Shown here: positions 24,349 to 32,328 of the stretch, piece after piece
Position numbering within the stretch: position 1 is the first letter of the stretch
How the letters are laid out: each line of letters starts with the position of its first letter
Source of the DNA: Ignavibacteriales bacterium
GTDB taxonomy: Bacteria > Bacteroidota > Ignavibacteria > Ignavibacteriales > Ignavibacteriaceae
Reading direction: 5' to 3'
Assembly: GCA_012517155.1 (NCBI GenBank)
Contig: JAAYVN010000052.1
Location: 1-35,774, forward strand
DNA: 35,774 nt
Made by a program: the position numbers and the translations under genes
Notes under the pieces: generated by a model
The model's input: only the letters and a program-made list of their open reading frames with translations
What the model was told of the DNA's origin: nothing
The model's database searches: none

Positions 24349-24858
24349 ATGAGACGTTTCAGAACTTTGGGCATATTGTTTTTCCTCATTCTGGTTTTCT
24401 CGGTCTCCTATTCAGAATCACCTATGCCCATATTTTACCGCTATTATGTTTCAGGTTCAATCACTGGAGATACTTTGAAAGATTTTACTAACTTCTCAAT
24501 TACGCTTTGGGGAAAGAATATATATGTGGATTCTGCTTTTGTAAGACTTTATGGATCAAAAAACGGGGTTGATTCTTCTCTTTCTTTTCCCGATACATCT
24601 GGAAAATACCTGCTTATTATTACAAATTCTTATAAACTGGATAGCTTAAAAGCAGTTCTTATGAAAAACGACTCCTTGGAATCGTCAAGTGAAATAAAAG
24701 CTCCTCTGGAATCACTCTATAAACCAATTATCTCAAATTACTTTATCCCGGACAGAAACTCGGGTTGTGGTAGTTGTAGTGTGGAACATAGCCGCTCTTC
24801 GCGGATTATTCGATATGAGTACATCATTTCCGGCTTGAATATTAACCTGCCTTGGTAG
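24349..24858 (+). CDS. Unrecognised exported protein with a GCGSC motif
   Basis: The 169-residue protein begins with a signal-like stretch (MRRFRTLGILFFLILVFSVS, cleavage near SYSES). The mature part is beta-rich, with SITGDTLKDFTNFSITLWG and FPDTSGKYLLIITNSYK, resembling a small beta-sandwich or transthyretin-like fold. Near the C-terminus GCGSCSVEHS gives a CxxC pair that could form a disulfide or bind a metal. No family was recognised. It is directly joined to the membrane protein upstream and ends 22 bases before the end of the convergent sigma/anti-sigma gene. Confidence 0.55.
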   Translation: MRRFRTLGILFFLILVFSVSYSESPMPIFYRYYVSGSITGDTLKDFTNFSITLWGKNIYVDSAFVRLYGSKNGVDSSLSFPDTSGKYLLIITNSYKLDSLKAVLMKNDSLESSSEIKAPLESLYKPIISNYFIPDRNSGCGSCSVEHSRSSRIIRYEYIISGLNINLPW

Positions 24859-24880: not shown

Positions 24881-26803
24881 TTATCTCGCCCCGGAAAAAT
24901 ATACTTCCTCTGAATTAGTCGGGTTATTTGAACCCATATCCTCTCTTGAAATTAACACACTTACCGGTTCCACATTACTGAACTGTGGTAAGTCAATAGC
25001 TTCAAAAAATGAATCATTTCCATCGCTTTGTCTTAAATCAATTCCTTTAGTTTCATTAGAAGTCTTGATCCAAAGTCTGAAAACTTTGCCCTGATTCGCT
25101 AAGGGTAGTCCTTTTAATATTAAAAAACCCGTCCTGTTCTCTATATCCATCAGAAGTTTACCGTTGTTTAAACCGGGTGTCTGTTCATTCTTAAGTTCAA
25201 TAATTAGAGTGGTTTCAGATAATAATAAGTTGTCCAGTATTTTCCTGTTGTACACATATTCTCGAACTGATGTTATAACACTTTCGTACTTTTCGTATGC
25301 TCTGTCTGGCAGATAATTAATCTTTTGAGAAATGTCGGACAAGCTGGATTGCAAAATAAAAAACAGCCCGATAATCATTATAAGTAATAATGCAATTCCC
25401 CCCCCAATTAAATAATCGATGTTCCTAATCCCTGTATTTGTTTTGTATACAACCTTTTGGTGATCTTTCTTTTTTTGATTTTCTGTCACATTATTTATTC
25501 TCTCCCCCGGGAACATACTATCTATATCCTCTGGATCTTTGTAGTCTAAAATAAATTGCGATTTATCTTCTTTTGCAAAAAGTTCAAGTTGTCCCTCATA
25601 GTATTTTTGGGACTCCAGCATTATATCTTCCTCTTCCTTGCTTAACTCCTCACGCGTATCTTGAATTTTTTTATCGAATACTCCTACTTCTTCTAATGGT
25701 TTTTCCAATTCTCCTTCTTCATCTTTTTGCTCCTCTTCTATCGGTTTTAATTCTTCTGATGTAGTTTCCTCCCCATTACCATTTGAATCTTCTGTTTCTG
25801 GAGCTTCTTCAAGTTGCTTCTCGCTTAAAACTTCTTCAACTTCCTCCTCTTTCTTTATAATGTCTTCAGGTTCTTCATTTTTCCGACTGACATCAGTGGA
25901 TACCTCGACTTCAGTCTCCTCCCCCTTATCTACTTCCTCTTTCGTGTAACCCTCTGTTCCGCTTTGTTCACTTACTACTGTCTTGTATATCCGGGCCAAT
26001 TTTTTCGCAATTCTTATCTTCACTTCCCTTGTTGGTTCTGCAACTTCAATTATTACACTTAATAAGGCTATCAATCTCTGATATTCTGCAAGGCATCTTA
26101 AATCCTCATGTGAGAGATCTGTCAAACTTAGCTTTATTTCTGTTTGCTCTTCTCGGTTTAGTGATCCAATGGCAAATGAAGGAAGTAAATCCGAGTACTT
26201 GCTCTCTTCAGTTCTCTCAATCCCTTCCGGTGTCCCCTTGAAATTTTCCTCTAGCTTTTCAATCGCATTTTTTATTTTACCCCGGACTGTCTCAACTGGA
26301 ATTTTTAGAGATTCTGCTATTTCATCATTTGTTAACCCCCCATAGAAAGCCAGCAATAATACATGCCCCTGTGCTTCTGTTAAATTATTTATTGCTTCTA
26401 AAACTTTTTCTTTATAATCAATTGCTTGCTGGTACTCCATGCTCTCGGAATTCTCAAGTATGGAGGGTAATATGTATTTTTTTTCATATTCATCGTCATA
26501 TGGCACTTTGTTATATTCTTCTGATCTGTAACGCCTTACAAAATCAATCGAGAGTAACCGTGTTAACGACACCAGATAAACAAAAGGATTGATTTTGTCT
26601 GTATTAATGATCTGAGCATTTTTCCAGATTATAATGAAGATATCTGCTAACAGTCTTTCCGAAGTTGAAATGTCATTCAACACTTTTTGGATAACCGAAA
26701 ATAACAATGGTGAATATCTGTTATATATCACCTCCAACGCTCTTTTATCGTAGTTTGCTATTAATCCAAATAGTTCTTTGTCTTTTAGTCCTGATATACT
26801 CAT
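24881..26803 (-). CDS. ECF sigma factor fused to an RskA-type anti-sigma factor in one membrane-spanning protein
   Basis: The 640-residue open frame is uninterrupted. Residues about 10-95 match sigma-70 region 2 (LLADIFIIIWKNAQI; PFVYLVSLTRLLSIDFVRRY). Residues 130-190 match region 4 with its helix-turn-helix (LTEAQGHVLLLAFYGGLTND, IAESLKIPVETVRGKIKNAI). Residues 200-265 resemble the cytoplasmic anti-sigma domain of RskA (LLPSFAIGSLNREEQTEIKL). A Glu-rich linker (about 280-440) leads to one membrane segment (463-485, GGGIALLLIMIIGLFFIL) and a periplasmic RskA C-terminal domain (GLPLANQGKVFRLWIKTS; SVLISREDMGSNNPTNSEEV). The ATG at 26803 is preferred over GTG 26827. It is last in an operon after GH18, 40 bases away. 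Normally sigma and anti-sigma are separate proteins; what signal it senses is unknown. Confidence 0.88.
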   Translation of the reverse strand: MSISGLKDKELFGLIANYDKRALEVIYNRYSPLLFSVIQKVLNDISTSERLLADIFIIIWKNAQIINTDKINPFVYLVSLTRLLSIDFVRRYRSEEYNKVPYDDEYEKKYILPSILENSESMEYQQAIDYKEKVLEAINNLTEAQGHVLLLAFYGGLTNDEIAESLKIPVETVRGKIKNAIEKLEENFKGTPEGIERTEESKYSDLLPSFAIGSLNREEQTEIKLSLTDLSHEDLRCLAEYQRLIALLSVIIEVAEPTREVKIRIAKKLARIYKTVVSEQSGTEGYTKEEVDKGEETEVEVSTDVSRKNEEPEDIIKKEEEVEEVLSEKQLEEAPETEDSNGNGEETTSEELKPIEEEQKDEEGELEKPLEEVGVFDKKIQDTREELSKEEEDIMLESQKYYEGQLELFAKEDKSQFILDYKDPEDIDSMFPGERINNVTENQKKKDHQKVVYKTNTGIRNIDYLIGGGIALLLIMIIGLFFILQSSLSDISQKINYLPDRAYEKYESVITSVREYVYNRKILDNLLLSETTLIIELKNEQTPGLNNGKLLMDIENRTGFLILKGLPLANQGKVFRLWIKTSNETKGIDLRQSDGNDSFFEAIDLPQFSNVEPVSVLISREDMGSNNPTNSEEVYFSGAR

Positions 26804-26843
26804 TATAGTTATCTTTTTAAATCTCACTTGCAGCAGAATTAAT

Positions 26844-28328
26844 CTACTTCAATATAAGCATTTTTTTCTGACTCGAATAACTTTCAGTTGTAAGCTGATA
26901 GATATATAATCCTGACGGAAGGTCTCCTGAATTGAATACTTTGTTATACTTTCCGGGAATTTGTCTCTCATTTACAATTGTCTCAATCAGTCTCCCGGCT
27001 ATATCGTAAATGCGTAACTTGACATTACTTTCCTTAATAATCGTATATGAAATTCTTGTCTCTGGATTAAATGGATTGGGATAATTTTGATATAATCCAT
27101 ATTCCTGATTGTTTATTTCCAACTCACCTTTTTCCACACTGGTAACTGGCGTATAAAACCTTCTGTAGAGTTCATTCCATAGTTCATTCCTCCCCTTGTC
27201 ATATCCTAATGCCCACATTCCAACCCCCTTGTAGTTCTTAGACTGGGCTAAACCATATTTCACTCCCAAACTTGAATCATTATCAAACCAGACCTGATAC
27301 CAACTTGTGTCATTATTTTGCCACCTGTACCATGGTACTTGGTAATTAGTTGCCCACAGTAATCCGTAAGTCTGGGAATTTGGTTGATCAGTAGTAAATC
27401 TCGTTGAACTTACATATTGTATTACGGAAGAGTTTATCCCATTTGTTCTGGTAAGCCATTTGCATCCGAAATATGGCACTCCTAATATCAGTTTATGAGG
27501 CATAGTAGATGTTGGACTTGCATACTGCGTGTTTACTGTATTATATATGTTATAACTGCCCCCCAAATAAGGTGCAGATGGCCCTGAATTAGTGCTCCAG
27601 CTGCCGTAAAAATCATAACCCATAATAAACACATAATCACATGCATCCACCAAACCCTGAAGTTTCCAGCTACTCCAGTTAACTGCCGGTCCGGCAAATG
27701 AAATCTCTGCCGTTGGAACCGTTGCTTTTATAAAAGTTGATAAATCCGTCATAAAACCGTTTATCACATCGCCTCTGTCAGAAGTCAGAAGAGATTCAAA
27801 ATCAATATTAATTCCATCAAGCGAATACTGTTGCATCCTGGACAGTACATTATTGAAAAAAGTCTGCTTCACACTTGGGTTTGTTAGTATTGTGTGGATT
27901 TCACTCCCGGTAAAGTTCACAACTGTTAATATTACCTTTACTCCGTTCGTATGAGCAGTGTTGATAACATCTGTCCATGGCCAGTAACTCGGATTGGATA
28001 AAACCCCACTTTCATTTACAGTAAAATCAAATGCAGCTATATGAGTTAATATATCATATCTAAGATATGCTTTGGCAGTCTGATACTCCCAGTCGGGAAG
28101 ATATCCAAATACTGAAGCTCCTACTTTTTTACTTTTGTCAAACTGCAGCGGTATAATATCTCTTCCCTCAATATCAAACTCGCTGGGCTCTTTTGAGAAC
28201 CGGGAATGTTCTTCGTACTCCATTGCATGTATAGATTTATACTCTTGTCCGCATACCAGAATATTTAATACTATTACCATTACGATACTCAGGTACTTTT
28301 CCATTCCTGCCATCTTTTTCTTTTTCAT
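26844..28328 (-). CDS. T9SS-secreted GH18 family glycoside hydrolase (chitinase/SleL-like)
   Basis: The 494-residue protein has an N-terminal hydrophobic signal (SIVMVIVLNILVCGQ). A GH18 barrel occupies about 68-390, with YLPDW (strand 1), ILTVVNFTG, the catalytic DGINIDFES (acid E178; Asn at the middle Asp as in SleL/YaaH spore-cortex and peptidoglycan-type members), FIMGYDFYGSW and VWFDNDSSLGVKYGLAQSK. The C-terminal 80 residues form a T9SS type A sorting domain (YQNYPNPFNPETRISYTI, ending KKMLILK), so it is exported to the cell surface or medium. The substrate could be chitin or other GlcNAc polymers. It starts 2 bases after the BtuF-like stop; an alternative start is the internal ATG at 28313. 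Confidence 0.88.
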   Translation of the reverse strand: MKKKKMAGMEKYLSIVMVIVLNILVCGQEYKSIHAMEYEEHSRFSKEPSEFDIEGRDIIPLQFDKSKKVGASVFGYLPDWEYQTAKAYLRYDILTHIAAFDFTVNESGVLSNPSYWPWTDVINTAHTNGVKVILTVVNFTGSEIHTILTNPSVKQTFFNNVLSRMQQYSLDGINIDFESLLTSDRGDVINGFMTDLSTFIKATVPTAEISFAGPAVNWSSWKLQGLVDACDYVFIMGYDFYGSWSTNSGPSAPYLGGSYNIYNTVNTQYASPTSTMPHKLILGVPYFGCKWLTRTNGINSSVIQYVSSTRFTTDQPNSQTYGLLWATNYQVPWYRWQNNDTSWYQVWFDNDSSLGVKYGLAQSKNYKGVGMWALGYDKGRNELWNELYRRFYTPVTSVEKGELEINNQEYGLYQNYPNPFNPETRISYTIIKESNVKLRIYDIAGRLIETIVNERQIPGKYNKVFNSGDLPSGLYIYQLTTESYSSQKKMLILK

Positions 28329-28330
28329 TA

Positions 28331-29119
28331 TTACTTAAAATCAGACATTATTATTTTCAGCTGATCTAGTCCCTCAGTTAAAGCTGCAATTCCGGGTTGT
28401 AAAATAACAGATGAATCAATATCATATACTCTCCCGGCTTTCCCTGCATTTGTGTTTAGCCAGTCATTCTTCTTCATATATGTATCCATGTTGTTTTCTT
28501 CTCCACACCAGGAAACAATAATAATATCAGGATTTCTTACTAATATCTCCCCCATATCTGCAACTCTGTCTTTGGCTTTCCGCTGCCCCTTGAATTCAGG
28601 GAATATGTCATCTCCTCCGGCTATTTCTATAAGCTCGCTGATAAATGTATTCCCTACAACTTTAGGTTCGTCCCACTCTTCAAAATAAACTTTTGGTCTG
28701 TTTTTCGATTTGGCAGTTTTTGATCTTACACCTTCCATCTTCTTTTCAATTGAAGCGATAAGTTTTGTTACCTCTTTATTCCTGCCTACAATATTCCCTA
28801 CTAAAAGCATAGCATTAAGTATCTCTCTTATTGAATGCTGATTGTTGGCTACTACATTGTAACCGGCTTGTATTAACTTTTTTGTAAGATTGGCTTGTAC
28901 GTCCGAAAATGTGAATATCAAATCCGGATTTAACTCGGCTATCATTTCAAAATTCGCATCAAGAAAAGTACCAACTACCGGTTTTGTTTCTTTTGCTATA
29001 CCCGGTCGCTTAGTGTATTCACTTATTCCTACTATTCTCTCGTCTTCTTCAAGAGCATAAAGTAGTTCCGTTGTCTCTTCAGTTAAGCAAATGATTCTTT
29101 CAGGATATGTGTTTTTCAT
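28331..29119 (-). CDS. BtuF-like substrate-binding protein without a signal peptide
   Basis: This 262-residue protein has the two-lobe helical-backbone binding-protein fold of the BtuF/FepB family (PERIICLTEETTELLYALEE, RIVGISEYTKRPGIAKETK, MIAELNPDLIFTFSDVQAN, VYFEEWDEPKVVGNTFISEL and PDIIIVSWCGEENN). Family members bind vitamin B12, heme or Fe-siderophores for ABC importers in the periplasm. Here the N-terminus (MKNTYPERIICL) has no hydrophobic signal, so it appears cytoplasmic, and no permease or ATPase gene is adjacent. The ligand is therefore unknown; signal-less cobalamin-binding relatives are annotated in other genomes. Its ATG overlaps the stop of the preceding NYN gene. Confidence 0.82.
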   Translation of the reverse strand: MKNTYPERIICLTEETTELLYALEEDERIVGISEYTKRPGIAKETKPVVGTFLDANFEMIAELNPDLIFTFSDVQANLTKKLIQAGYNVVANNQHSIREILNAMLLVGNIVGRNKEVTKLIASIEKKMEGVRSKTAKSKNRPKVYFEEWDEPKVVGNTFISELIEIAGGDDIFPEFKGQRKAKDRVADMGEILVRNPDIIIVSWCGEENNMDTYMKKNDWLNTNAGKAGRVYDIDSSVILQPGIAALTEGLDQLKIIMSDFK

Positions 29120-29592
29120 TTTTTTTCTCCAAATAACTTTTCAAACTCATTCTTGTAATTATTCAATTCGTTAATCTTAATATTCTCATCATTCTTCAAA
29201 TTCTTAGAGTTAATTTTACTCCCCTCAACTCGTCTGTAAAACTCTTCGGATAAAAGAACTTCACACGAACATACCTTCGCAAATCCTGTAACCTCATTAT
29301 CCGATGATATCACAACTAAATTTCGTGGGTTTCTGGATTCACTGATGTCCCTTTTAATAATCTCGTCAGCAGGTCGCGCATCAGAGTATTTAATCATTAT
29401 TCTGGCCGATCTTACTCCCTCACCTCTAAAACCGTCCAAATATAACGTAACCTTTCCTCTGTTTCCGGTAAAATAGTTCTCCAGGTATCTTACTATTCCC
29501 GCCCTGGCTTCCGATTTCTCATTCTTTTGCAATAATTTTAGTTTCGGAATTTTCCCTATTAAGTTATTACCGTCTATTAAGTACTCTTTCAT
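29116..29592 (-). CDS. YacP/Rae1-like NYN (PIN-fold) ribonuclease
   Basis: The 158-residue protein has the NYN/YacP pattern of acidic residues: YLIDGNNLIGKIPKLK (Asp at about residue 7), KVTLYLDGFRGEGV, IKYSDARPADEIIKRDISE and LVVISSDNEVTGFAKVCSCE. In Bacillus the YacP relative Rae1 is a ribosome-associated endoribonuclease that cuts mRNA in the A site; this role is from family knowledge. The last 40 residues are Asn/Lys/Glu-rich and probably flexible. It is the first gene of NYN - BtuF-like - GH18 - sigma/anti-sigma; no promoter matching the group consensus is visible upstream. Confidence 0.8.
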   Translation of the reverse strand: MKEYLIDGNNLIGKIPKLKLLQKNEKSEARAGIVRYLENYFTGNRGKVTLYLDGFRGEGVRSARIMIKYSDARPADEIIKRDISESRNPRNLVVISSDNEVTGFAKVCSCEVLLSEEFYRRVEGSKINSKNLKNDENIKINELNNYKNEFEKLFGEKK

Positions 29593-29787: not shown

Positions 29788-32328
29788 CTACCTTCCGCTG
29801 AAGAATTGATCAGACTTTGTCAGCTTTAAATCCTGAAGGTGTGGCGCTTTGACTTTGATTTCAAACCTGTAGCCCGTATACATTCCAAGTGGATTCCATG
29901 TAAAACTCATCGTCCAGCAGTGCAAATCCCTTGTTACCATTACTTGTGGTGCGGAAAACTGCTTGTTTTCTATATCATAACTACCTGTCACACTAAACTT
30001 CCAACTCTTCGTTAAATTAAAATTTAAGTTCCCGCTTATATTGGAATACTTGCTTGTCATATCAGGAGTCGGTTTGCTCAGATTATAATTGTAATTCAGT
30101 GCTATTGACCATGGTATTGAGAAATCAGCTTCTTCTGTTTCATATAATCCCCTGTATGAACTGCTGCTCACCACATATTCATCCTCAAATTCTTCTGCTG
30201 TTTCTTCCCCCTCTCTTTCCTCTGGTTTTAGCTTCTCCCCCGATATCGAAGTTGAGATTGCAAAATTAAAGTTCTTTAACCTAAGCCAGCCTTGCCCCCC
30301 CACGTGTGCTAATCTGTTTACCTCCCCTACTCCCTTAACATACTCATAAAGTGAATAAGTTGATGAACCTGAAAAACTCAGATACTCCCCTATCTGCGTA
30401 TTGTATCCTATATTCAAATCCGAAAATTTCAAACTGTCTGCGGCAAAATTGTAATTCATTGATGCCCGCAGGTTTAGTAACTGTATTTTCTTCTCCTTTG
30501 ATGTCGTATCAGTTGGATCCGCTTTAGTCTTCATTTCAAATGTATTCTGTAAACTCAAATTCATACTCTGCGATTCATATGAGGAAGCTCCGCCAAATAA
30601 TTCTCTCTCAAACTTGTTATACATTATTCGCTCTCCCTTCGAATTAGTATAATAATCGTAGTAACCCCACCCTTCCTTCGAAAAATCAGGTTGAAAACTA
30701 TATGAAATTGTTGGTTGTAATATATGCCGGAATGCTGCTATTCCCATAGTATTCGGTTGAACTATTCCGTAAATCTTTGTCGAAGCACTTAATCCGGTTG
30801 TAAAAGTCCTTACAAAATTAATTTCATTCTTATCATTTGTTATCAACGAATCTGTGTTACTGTTCGGATTGTACCTCGACTCTCTCGTTATCCGCTTATT
30901 ATACCATAACTCCTGATAACTGAAATTTGGTGTTATGTTTATAAAACCGATTTTTGGAGATGCACTTAAAGACACATTGTGCCTCACTCCTCCCCTTATC
31001 GTCAAATCCCCTTCTCTTTTTAATCGCCTGTTTGAAAATTGTCCGTTATAACTTAAACCAATAGCTTCGTACCACTTCTCTTCAGATACCGTTCCTTTCG
31101 ACTTGAAAGGATAAAAATGCGACTTGCTGAATGTTATATTTGGTAAGTATTCATCAATAACATCATCTTCCAGATTCTGGTTCCTTCTGTAATTAACTGA
31201 TAAAGACGTTCCGGATTCTTCCCAGTTCTTGTAATATGTAGCACTCGAATTTATATCCTTGTTCATTAATTCATCTATATTCGTACTGGTATTCTGAAAG
31301 TAACTCCCCGTTACAAATTGTAAATTAGCATCAAATCTTGAAGTGGGTGTTATTGTCTGATTATGAACCAGATAAAGCCTCCAGTTCTTTGTCTCATTAT
31401 AATCTGGATCTGTCTTCTCTCCCTGATGCAAATCCGAAAAACTCCCCTCAAATGTACCACTGTATGAATACCTTTTTGAGTATCTGAAACGTGAATCTAA
31501 ATTATATCCCCCCTTTAGAAAATAATCCGCCGTAAGACTTAAATCCATATAATCATTTATCGCCCAAAAATACCCGAATCTCGAAAAGTACCTCCCATAT
31601 CCTGCTCTGTCACCAAATGCCGGGGTGATTATTCCCGACCGCCTCCCCGACTGTATCGGAAATACCGCAAAAGGTATTGGGATTGGAAATGGTACATCTC
31701 CGAACGCAAGAAATATCCATTTCCCTATTACCTGTTCCTTTTGCACCATCTTCATTTGCTGACCAAAAAAATAATAATGAGGATGATCAAGCGTACACGT
31801 CGAATAAACTCCTTTCTCAATAAAAAATGTTTCTTTATCCACCTTTTTTATCTTTGCACCTGAGTATGCTGCTTCATCTTCTTTTGTCTTTGCATATGTA
31901 ATATAACCCCTTTGCGTTTTGAAATTATATCTCATCATATTCCCCTTGTACTCATCCCCCTTATCTAACATAACCGGCAATTCATCCAACTTCCCCTCAG
32001 TCGTATCACTCTCCCTGCCAAAAGCCTCTATGCTGCTCGTTCCAAAATCTACATTGATAATTCCGCTCTTAAGTTCCGTATCCTTGTACTTTAAATATCC
32101 GCTTCGGTATATATCCATCTTTTTATTATTTATAAAGAATATAATAGAATCAACTGAAGACGCATAAATTACCGAATCAATATCACTCTTTTCCTCAACA
32201 CTATCCGCCATTACGGTTAGACTGTCTCCTGGCATAACAGTTGCACTCAACAACGTATCCGTTGCCTCTTGAGCAGAAATCGATCCCGCTAAAACCAATA
32301 CAAATACAACTATTACTTTTCGGAACAT
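29788..32328 (-). CDS. lptD: LptD-like LPS-assembly outer-membrane protein
   Basis: The 846 residues have a signal peptide (MFRKVIVVFVLVLAGSISAQ), a periplasmic OstA-like N-terminal region (about 45-205, TCTLDHPHYYFFGQQMKMVQ) and a large beta-barrel with the family signature FPIPIPFAVFPIQSGRRSGI, ITPAFGDRAGYGRYFSRFGY and FLKGGYNLDSRFRYSKRYSY. LptD inserts lipopolysaccharide into the outer leaflet of the outer membrane; known Ignavibacteria/Chlorobi homologs share this pattern. The second half is Tyr/Ser/Asn-rich strands. No LptE is adjacent. It lies 8 bases after the ROK kinase gene, so they share a transcript. Confidence 0.85.
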   Translation of the reverse strand: MFRKVIVVFVLVLAGSISAQEATDTLLSATVMPGDSLTVMADSVEEKSDIDSVIYASSVDSIIFFINNKKMDIYRSGYLKYKDTELKSGIINVDFGTSSIEAFGRESDTTEGKLDELPVMLDKGDEYKGNMMRYNFKTQRGYITYAKTKEDEAAYSGAKIKKVDKETFFIEKGVYSTCTLDHPHYYFFGQQMKMVQKEQVIGKWIFLAFGDVPFPIPIPFAVFPIQSGRRSGIITPAFGDRAGYGRYFSRFGYFWAINDYMDLSLTADYFLKGGYNLDSRFRYSKRYSYSGTFEGSFSDLHQGEKTDPDYNETKNWRLYLVHNQTITPTSRFDANLQFVTGSYFQNTSTNIDELMNKDINSSATYYKNWEESGTSLSVNYRRNQNLEDDVIDEYLPNITFSKSHFYPFKSKGTVSEEKWYEAIGLSYNGQFSNRRLKREGDLTIRGGVRHNVSLSASPKIGFINITPNFSYQELWYNKRITRESRYNPNSNTDSLITNDKNEINFVRTFTTGLSASTKIYGIVQPNTMGIAAFRHILQPTISYSFQPDFSKEGWGYYDYYTNSKGERIMYNKFERELFGGASSYESQSMNLSLQNTFEMKTKADPTDTTSKEKKIQLLNLRASMNYNFAADSLKFSDLNIGYNTQIGEYLSFSGSSTYSLYEYVKGVGEVNRLAHVGGQGWLRLKNFNFAISTSISGEKLKPEEREGEETAEEFEDEYVVSSSSYRGLYETEEADFSIPWSIALNYNYNLSKPTPDMTSKYSNISGNLNFNLTKSWKFSVTGSYDIENKQFSAPQVMVTRDLHCWTMSFTWNPLGMYTGYRFEIKVKAPHLQDLKLTKSDQFFSGR

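Follow-up and report, generated by a model that had tools for sequence, protein, structure and literature searches.

The window analysed here is a stretch of 35,774 nucleotides from an Ignavibacteriales genome, the assembly of which has 3.29 Mb in 160 contigs and is 99.65% complete. On its reverse strand, a single stop-free reading frame joins an ECF sigma factor to an RskA-type anti-sigma factor, and three further genes of the same strand lie upstream. The frame is read below from the ATG at 26803, while the alternative start, a GTG at 26827, would give an ORF at 24881-26827 (-) of 648 aa. The genes and the parts of the fused protein are as follows.

24881..26803 (-): fused ECF sigma / RskA-type anti-sigma protein, 640 aa from the ATG at 26803, stop-free ORF
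26525..26728 (-): sigma region 2, residues 26-93 (Pfam PF04542, E 1.9e-5)
26252..26410 (-): sigma region 4, residues 132-184 (Pfam PF08281, E 5.6e-10)
26186..26236 (-): junction, residues 190-206, about where the sigma stop and the anti-sigma start sit in split relatives; low model confidence
25964..26185 (-): class I (RskA-like, zinc-less) anti-sigma domain, residues 207-280 (family profile and AlphaFold2)
25409..25963 (-): acidic linker, residues 281-465, i.e. 185 residues with 60 D/E and 25 K/R
25352..25408 (-): single transmembrane helix, residues 466-484 (hydropathy)
24884..25351 (-): periplasmic RskA_C-like part, residues 485-640, a helix and an eight-strand domain (profile comparison, relatives and model)
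26844..28328 (-): upstream GH18 protein that carries a type IX secretion tail; 40 bases separate its gene from the sigma ATG; putative member of the system
28331..29119 (-): BtuF-like protein of the periplasmic binding protein family (Pfam); putative member of the system
29116..29592 (-): YacP-like NYN protein (Pfam); putative member of the system
29788-32328: LptD, a large ORF identified near the fusion gene

The sigma part of the protein occupies residues 1-190. In addition to the two Pfam families listed, PF04545 also matches over the Pfam cut-off in this part and TIGR02937 over its own cut-off in NCBIfam, while sigma region 3 is not matched in Pfam; with regions 2 and 4 and without region 3, the protein is an ECF sigma factor. 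Its best NCBIfam match is PRK09646 (SigK), which at 89/226 bits stays far under the cut-off, and the nearest PDB sequence is again SigK (4nqw_A, phmmer E 1.3e-12). The other matches to the protein in its own genome are two further ECF sigma genes only.

Behind the junction, the anti-sigma domain is modelled as four helices (207-212, 217-225, 232-251 and 259-280). Residues 200-275 match a profile of the relatives' anti-sigma domains at E 1e-26 with 21-32% identities, an E-value which is not independent, as the window protein is one of the ten seed rows of that profile. The same profile is common to the window protein and the RskA-type proteins L132 and L140, and against PDB sequences it places 3hug_B (RslA) first at an E-value of only 0.25. 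By reading, the HxxxCxxC zinc motif is absent from the domain, which contains a single Cys and a single His. Among the Pfam matches of the protein at E 1, no zinc-finger family appears. On the whole, the first-pass annotation, which had seen here one polypeptide carrying sigma and its own anti-sigma factor, stands with respect to the single stop-free frame and all of its parts, but the linker is 185 residues long rather than about 160. Its assignment of an RskA-like periplasmic domain is supported at the level of the family but not by the score of the protein itself. The periplasmic part alone reaches E 0.2 against RskA_C, under the cut-off, and a search of the own genome with PF10099 (RskA_C) found nothing. 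However, the profile of the periplasmic family compares with two RskA_C proteins from outside the order at an hhalign probability of 98.9%, split relatives score over the RskA_C cut-off, and the window's periplasmic part is 29% identical to the matching stretch of L087, a protein which passes that cut-off. We therefore call this end RskA_C-like because of the profile comparison and the relatives, and not because of its own Pfam score.

The AlphaFold2 model of residues 1-290, built with 25 alignment rows, has a pLDDT of 91.5 and a pTM of 0.89 and supports the earlier proposal of an anti-sigma fold joined to sigma in cis; the blocks under 80 pLDDT are the junction (61, residues 191-200) and the final ten residues (55). 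In comparison with known structures, 4nqw_A, the RskA-bound SigK, ranked first by phmmer, Foldseek and VIA-align. The VIA-align superposition, which probes the sigma part and does not reach the placement of the inhibitor domain, covers 148/148 residues at 1.9 A with Z 15.6, while ChrR-bound SigE chains fit moderately (4.2-4.4 A over 121-144 residues) and the rmsd exceeds 10 A for full-length sigmaE and AlgU chains. In the model, which may owe something to recall of 4nqw from the training of AlphaFold2, the window sigma is in the sigma2-sigma4 arrangement of SigK held by RskA, and since the sigma part models in this arrangement, the inhibitor domain is suggested to work in cis on sigma. A second model, of residues 460-640, has a pLDDT of 85.4 and a pTM of 0.65 and consists of two helices, the first of them long, and eight strands; a PDB search with this periplasmic model gave no match at E <=0.001.

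The GH18, BtuF-like and NYN genes had been suggested as targets or accessories of the fused protein. This link proves to be weak, because the context is not kept in the relatives: across 37 of their loci, each with no more than about 2 to 6 kb of flank, BtuF-like matches are absent, the sole GH18 match is the C-terminal secretion tail in L093, and L094 alone has an NYN match. The latter (L094:8440-8787, Pyrinomonas) lies about 2 kb from a SigK-type sigma gene and is probably a coincidence. By eye, the BtuF-like protein of the window (28331-29119) seemingly starts without a signal peptide, and the convergent neighbour at 24349-24858, which has no Pfam match at E 1, has a likely one. No TonB-dependent receptor is found among the identified ORFs neighbouring the fusion.

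An anti-sigma inhibitor is normally encoded by a separate adjacent gene. Most relatives of the window protein have two closely coupled genes rather than one frame, and in all 38 of the split pairs examined (38/38), the distance between the end of the sigma stop codon and the anti-sigma start is within -3 to +16 bases. A first contig scan with the single window protein found no relative; at E <=0.001, 58 of 59 genomes (own included) have a match, many of them to the sigma part only, and a profile search of the order gives matches at 1e-20 in 138 of 164 genomes (own included). A stop-free frame with both domains is verified in at least 15 of these 164 genomes, the window's included, which is a minimum, since only the loci of the best matches were retrieved. 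Two more fusions (G225 and G408) come from another order, in a class search of 391 genomes drawn evenly from the larger group, where the best matches were listed and the fusion count is likewise a minimum. The same fused architecture is thus present in related genomes, as the first-pass annotation proposed to look for. Chance read-through of neighbouring genes was set aside, as a gene was counted as fused only where a stop-free frame holds both domains. In L002-L006, L009 and L017, the two domains share one frame but are separated by a stop codon (two stops in L009); their long frames in the search results merely reflect translation across stops. Programmed stop read-through as a general theme was also rejected, since in-frame split pairs are not in excess: phases 0, 1 and 2 are represented by 9, 7 and 22 of the 38 pairs.

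Six of the 15 fusions are not TonB-ended, namely those of the window (G000), G014, G097, G129, G002 and G098. Like the window protein, three of them match RskA_C below the family cut-off (G014, 8.9e-4; G097, 1.3e-3; G129, 5.2e-4); G002 has no RskA_C match in Pfam, and the frame of G098 leaves its contig ahead of the periplasmic part. In the other order, RskA_C is matched at 4.3e-6 in G225 (below the cut-off) and at 5.4e-7 in G408 (over the cut-off), and His/Cys residues in the inhibitor domains of these two (L183 and L182, respectively) resemble a zinc motif by eye. Named records with fusions are Ignavibacteria bacterium RBG_16_34_14 (L089), Ignavibacteria bacterium GWC2_36_12 (L090), uncultured Ignavibacterium sp. 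(L092, leaving its contig) and Bacteroidetes bacterium UR.bin72 (L093). The median linker is 298 residues in 13 fused entries vs 122 in 45 split ones, a difference driven by the TonB-ended clade, as L033, L066 and L080 have only 76-99.

The remaining nine of the 15 fused genomes, in two genera, form this TonB-ended clade, which has full support in the tree. TonB_C is matched over the Pfam cut-off in seven of them (G018, G085, G086, G087, G025, G088 and G090), with E-values from 2.2e-21 to 1.4e-17; in G089 most of the TonB domain can be read before the fetched stretch ends, and G093, which leaves its contig, is assigned by kinship. Sigma region 4 is just below the Pfam cut-off in G025 and G088. 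All nine genomes have a second profile match elsewhere, mostly a sigma frame of ordinary length. The order of parts at L034, L036, L057, L059, L063, L067 and L093, and partly at L062 and L061, is sigma, anti-sigma, linker, transmembrane helix and TonB_C (PF03544); these proteins have about 830 to more than 1000 residues, with a K/E/P-rich linker of 288-565 residues.

The tree contains 61 sigma plus anti-sigma rows, 46 split and 15 fused; L039 was left out, since no anti-sigma domain was found in its row. On this tree the fused label requires 5 changes, of which the starred branches force at least 4, counts which cannot separate gains from losses. A single origin of all 15 fusions is rejected as one clade (p 3e-6), and so is that of the 14 without G129 (p 0.005), a grouping picked after inspection of the tree. 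The test does not reject a clade uniting the window with the three genus-g15 genomes (p 0.60), and the tree constrained to it scores 2.6 log units better; the TonB-ended fusions with g15 (p 0.075) and the window with both (p 0.065) are not rejected either. Because one clade of 15 is rejected, the sequences suggest more than one origin of fusion within the order, unless some fused genes have separated again. The fusion of the window, whose row has a long branch (1.92) and an unsure placement, may be old and inherited. As to the location, 15 of 29 relatives' loci, fetched with short flanks, have the pair in divergent orientation next to alaS, and the adjacency to alaS is found also in all nine TonB-ended loci and three g15 loci, while alaS is not beside the fusion in the fetched stretches of the window, G002 and G129. 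Since in the own genome the place next to alaS that relatives use (L191:3958-4723, G000:C18) has no sigma gene, the window gene has probably moved to its present place behind the GH18, BtuF-like and NYN genes. The next ORF of at least 100 aa on that side of the own-genome alaS looks by eye like an alpha/beta hydrolase.

Fusion of sigma to anti-sigma is, as a kind, already known: the cited parts of PMC8999054 list IutY (ECF243), ECF48, ECF52, ECF53 and some members of ECF36, besides extensions in no fewer than 26 ECF groups. Among the closest known systems, SigK-RskA (4nqw; Mycobacterium, Yersinia) shares the sigma fold, the sigma2-sigma4 arrangement (in the model), the zinc-less class I domain, the single transmembrane helix and, at the family level, an RskA_C-like periplasmic part. 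There, however, two genes are found, whereas the window has one polypeptide with a long acidic linker before the transmembrane helix; as sigma and anti-sigma share one frame, the window protein is a fused homologue and not a canonical SigK/RskA pair. IutY, as portrayed in passages of PMC9249621 and PMC5411451, is likewise one polypeptide with a cytosolic sigma, one transmembrane helix and a periplasmic anti-sigma part, but that part is FecR-like, and IutY answers an outer-membrane aerobactin receptor (PMC9249621, same passages). Unlike IutY, the window protein carries its class I inhibitor as a separate domain, a folded one that would stay on sigma after release from the membrane, and has an RskA_C-like end; no FecR family is among its Pfam matches at E 1. 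The actinobacterial ECF48, ECF52 and ECF53 (e.g. SCO4117), which the cited section of PMC8999054 presents as predicted C-terminal anti-sigma fusions, share an anti-sigma-like domain at the C-terminal side plus a transmembrane helix (PMC8999054, PMC5826349, in the parts cited). Their domain is a zinc finger, and ECF52 carries in addition a proline-rich and carbohydrate-binding end, while the window protein has no HxxxCxxC motif and ends RskA_C-like. The split Ignavibacteriales pairs have related domains throughout and differ by the stop and start codons between them. A full-text literature search of limited reach found neither an RskA-type fusion nor a sigma factor with a TonB domain; what thus seems to be new is the SigK/RskA-type fusion, the fact that it recurs where split forms also exist, and the variant with a TonB end.

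For the way in which such a protein works, our preferred reading, held with a probability of roughly one half and drawn by analogy, is that an ancestral SigK/RskA-type gene pair was fused into one gene and that inhibition in cis is relieved by stepwise proteolysis. The inhibitor domain would clasp sigma regions 2 and 4 in cis, and the transmembrane helix would anchor the whole protein to the inner membrane. Upon a periplasmic signal, a first cut would fall within the RskA_C-like part, an RseP-type site-2 protease would then cleave in the membrane, and a sigma-inhibitor fragment with the acidic tail would be released, from which tail and inhibitor domain would be trimmed or loosened from the C-terminal side to give active sigma, much like IutY. 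In favour of this reading are the prediction of sigma and the inhibitor domain as a single unit, the SigK-RskA arrangement of the sigma part and the recurrence of fusions among relatives which are otherwise split. In fact, the first-pass annotation is borne out in that sigma, being part of one polypeptide, cannot be set free by two chains coming apart, but its suggestion that the activation mechanism may be novel has to be given up, as precedent exists in IutY and in the predicted ECF48/52/53 fusions. IutY of Pseudomonas putida is described as a natural sigma/anti-sigma fusion in the relevant parts of PMC9249621, PMC8999054 and PMC5411451, and the first and last of these report its cleavage by Prc and then by RseP, freeing active sigma. 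The cited part of PMC7509140 reports that RskA of M. tuberculosis is a substrate of the site-2 protease Rip1 and, for RskA, that the cytoplasmic part by itself inhibits SigK; because an attached domain of this type is alone inhibitory, trimming or a conformational change must follow the release from the membrane. Two site-2 protease candidates over the Pfam cut-off are present in the own genome, which is weak evidence, since a match is found in all 14 control genomes (14/14).

The first rival, clearly less probable than stepwise proteolysis and still a serious one because RskA is reported also to activate SigK, is a switch in which the two parts never separate: a change in the periplasmic part, or loss of that part, would turn the inhibitor domain from a block into a support of sigma, with the protein whole or membrane-bound and the long linker reaching the chromosome. 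In the portion of PMC7509140 cited, RskA of both M. tuberculosis and Yersinia enterocolitica activates as well as inhibits SigK, and while Yersinia RskA 1-85 inhibits, RskA 1-179, which by our own reading of that portion retains the membrane segment, leaves SigK fully active, above SigK alone. Fusion would be harmless in such a system, so its tolerance would be explained, in line with the rejection of a single clade of 15 fusions and with the longer fused linkers (298 vs 122, the TonB-ended clade again driving the difference). On the other hand, no tested RskA-type fusion was found in the literature search, proteolysis is needed by IutY, which is the only tested fusion in the cited review passages, and RskA itself is a site-2 protease substrate. 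A broader idea, to which we give slightly less credence again, is that these sigma factors are switched without leaving the inhibitor and that in one clade a TonB C-terminal domain has taken the place of the sensor end, whereby a single protein would span the distance from an outer-membrane transporter, across periplasm and inner membrane, to a promoter and bind sigma directly to TonB-type coupling.

A cut at the junction (about 190-206) shortly after translation, yielding separate sigma and anti-sigma that would act like those of the relatives, is rather unlikely. The junction is indeed the least ordered part of the model save the C-terminal end (mean pLDDT 61 at residues 191-200), and fusion would then alter little, explaining its recurrence; however, no conserved cleavage signature is seen by eye and the junction sequences vary among fusions. 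We consider it improbable that the window protein is a sigma factor in decay, or one inhibited for good, that lacks a functional route of activation: its row has a long branch, it is absent from the alaS location used by many relatives and it has no known targets, but the models show well-formed sigma and inhibitor domains and a fairly well-formed periplasmic part, and the frame is kept in several fused lineages, one clade spanning nine genomes of two genera. Around the junction, frames 1 and 2 are closed by several stops and frame 0 has none, and in-frame ATG, GTG or TTG is absent from residue 151 to 226, so that a hidden gene pair would need at least two sequence errors; since the starts of split relatives adjoin the sigma stop, one error would have to affect a stop codon or the frame, and the other a start codon. 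No further genome of the window's genus surfaced in the searches for relatives. A sequence or assembly error concealing two genes, though favoured by this lack of a second genome, by the long branch (1.92) and by the split form in most relatives, is thus very improbable, given the errors required and the shared origin, not rejected, with three fused g15 genomes, two of which are named records from separate assemblies.

The fused frame means that the switch must work without two proteins simply separating, and the recurrent fusions are hence a natural test of how much release the control of sigma needs. If the fused proteins are cut, they will reveal which cleavages are enough; if they work whole, the textbook picture, in which an anti-sigma factor has to let go, is incomplete, which would agree with the activation reported for RskA. 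In the TonB-ended form, sigma could be coupled to outer-membrane transport within a single chain. In addition, split, fused and TonB-ended forms occur at the alaS locus of related genomes, so that the transition can be traced step by step. In Ignavibacteriaceae bacterium Prado070, a stand-alone ORF beside alaS (L088:4612-5835, 407 aa) has anti-sigma, transmembrane helix and TonB_C (E 7e-20), and it is followed at L088:5989-7256 by a sigma frame of 191 aa and a short anti-sigma frame stopping just past its transmembrane helix, an arrangement which is a possible intermediate.
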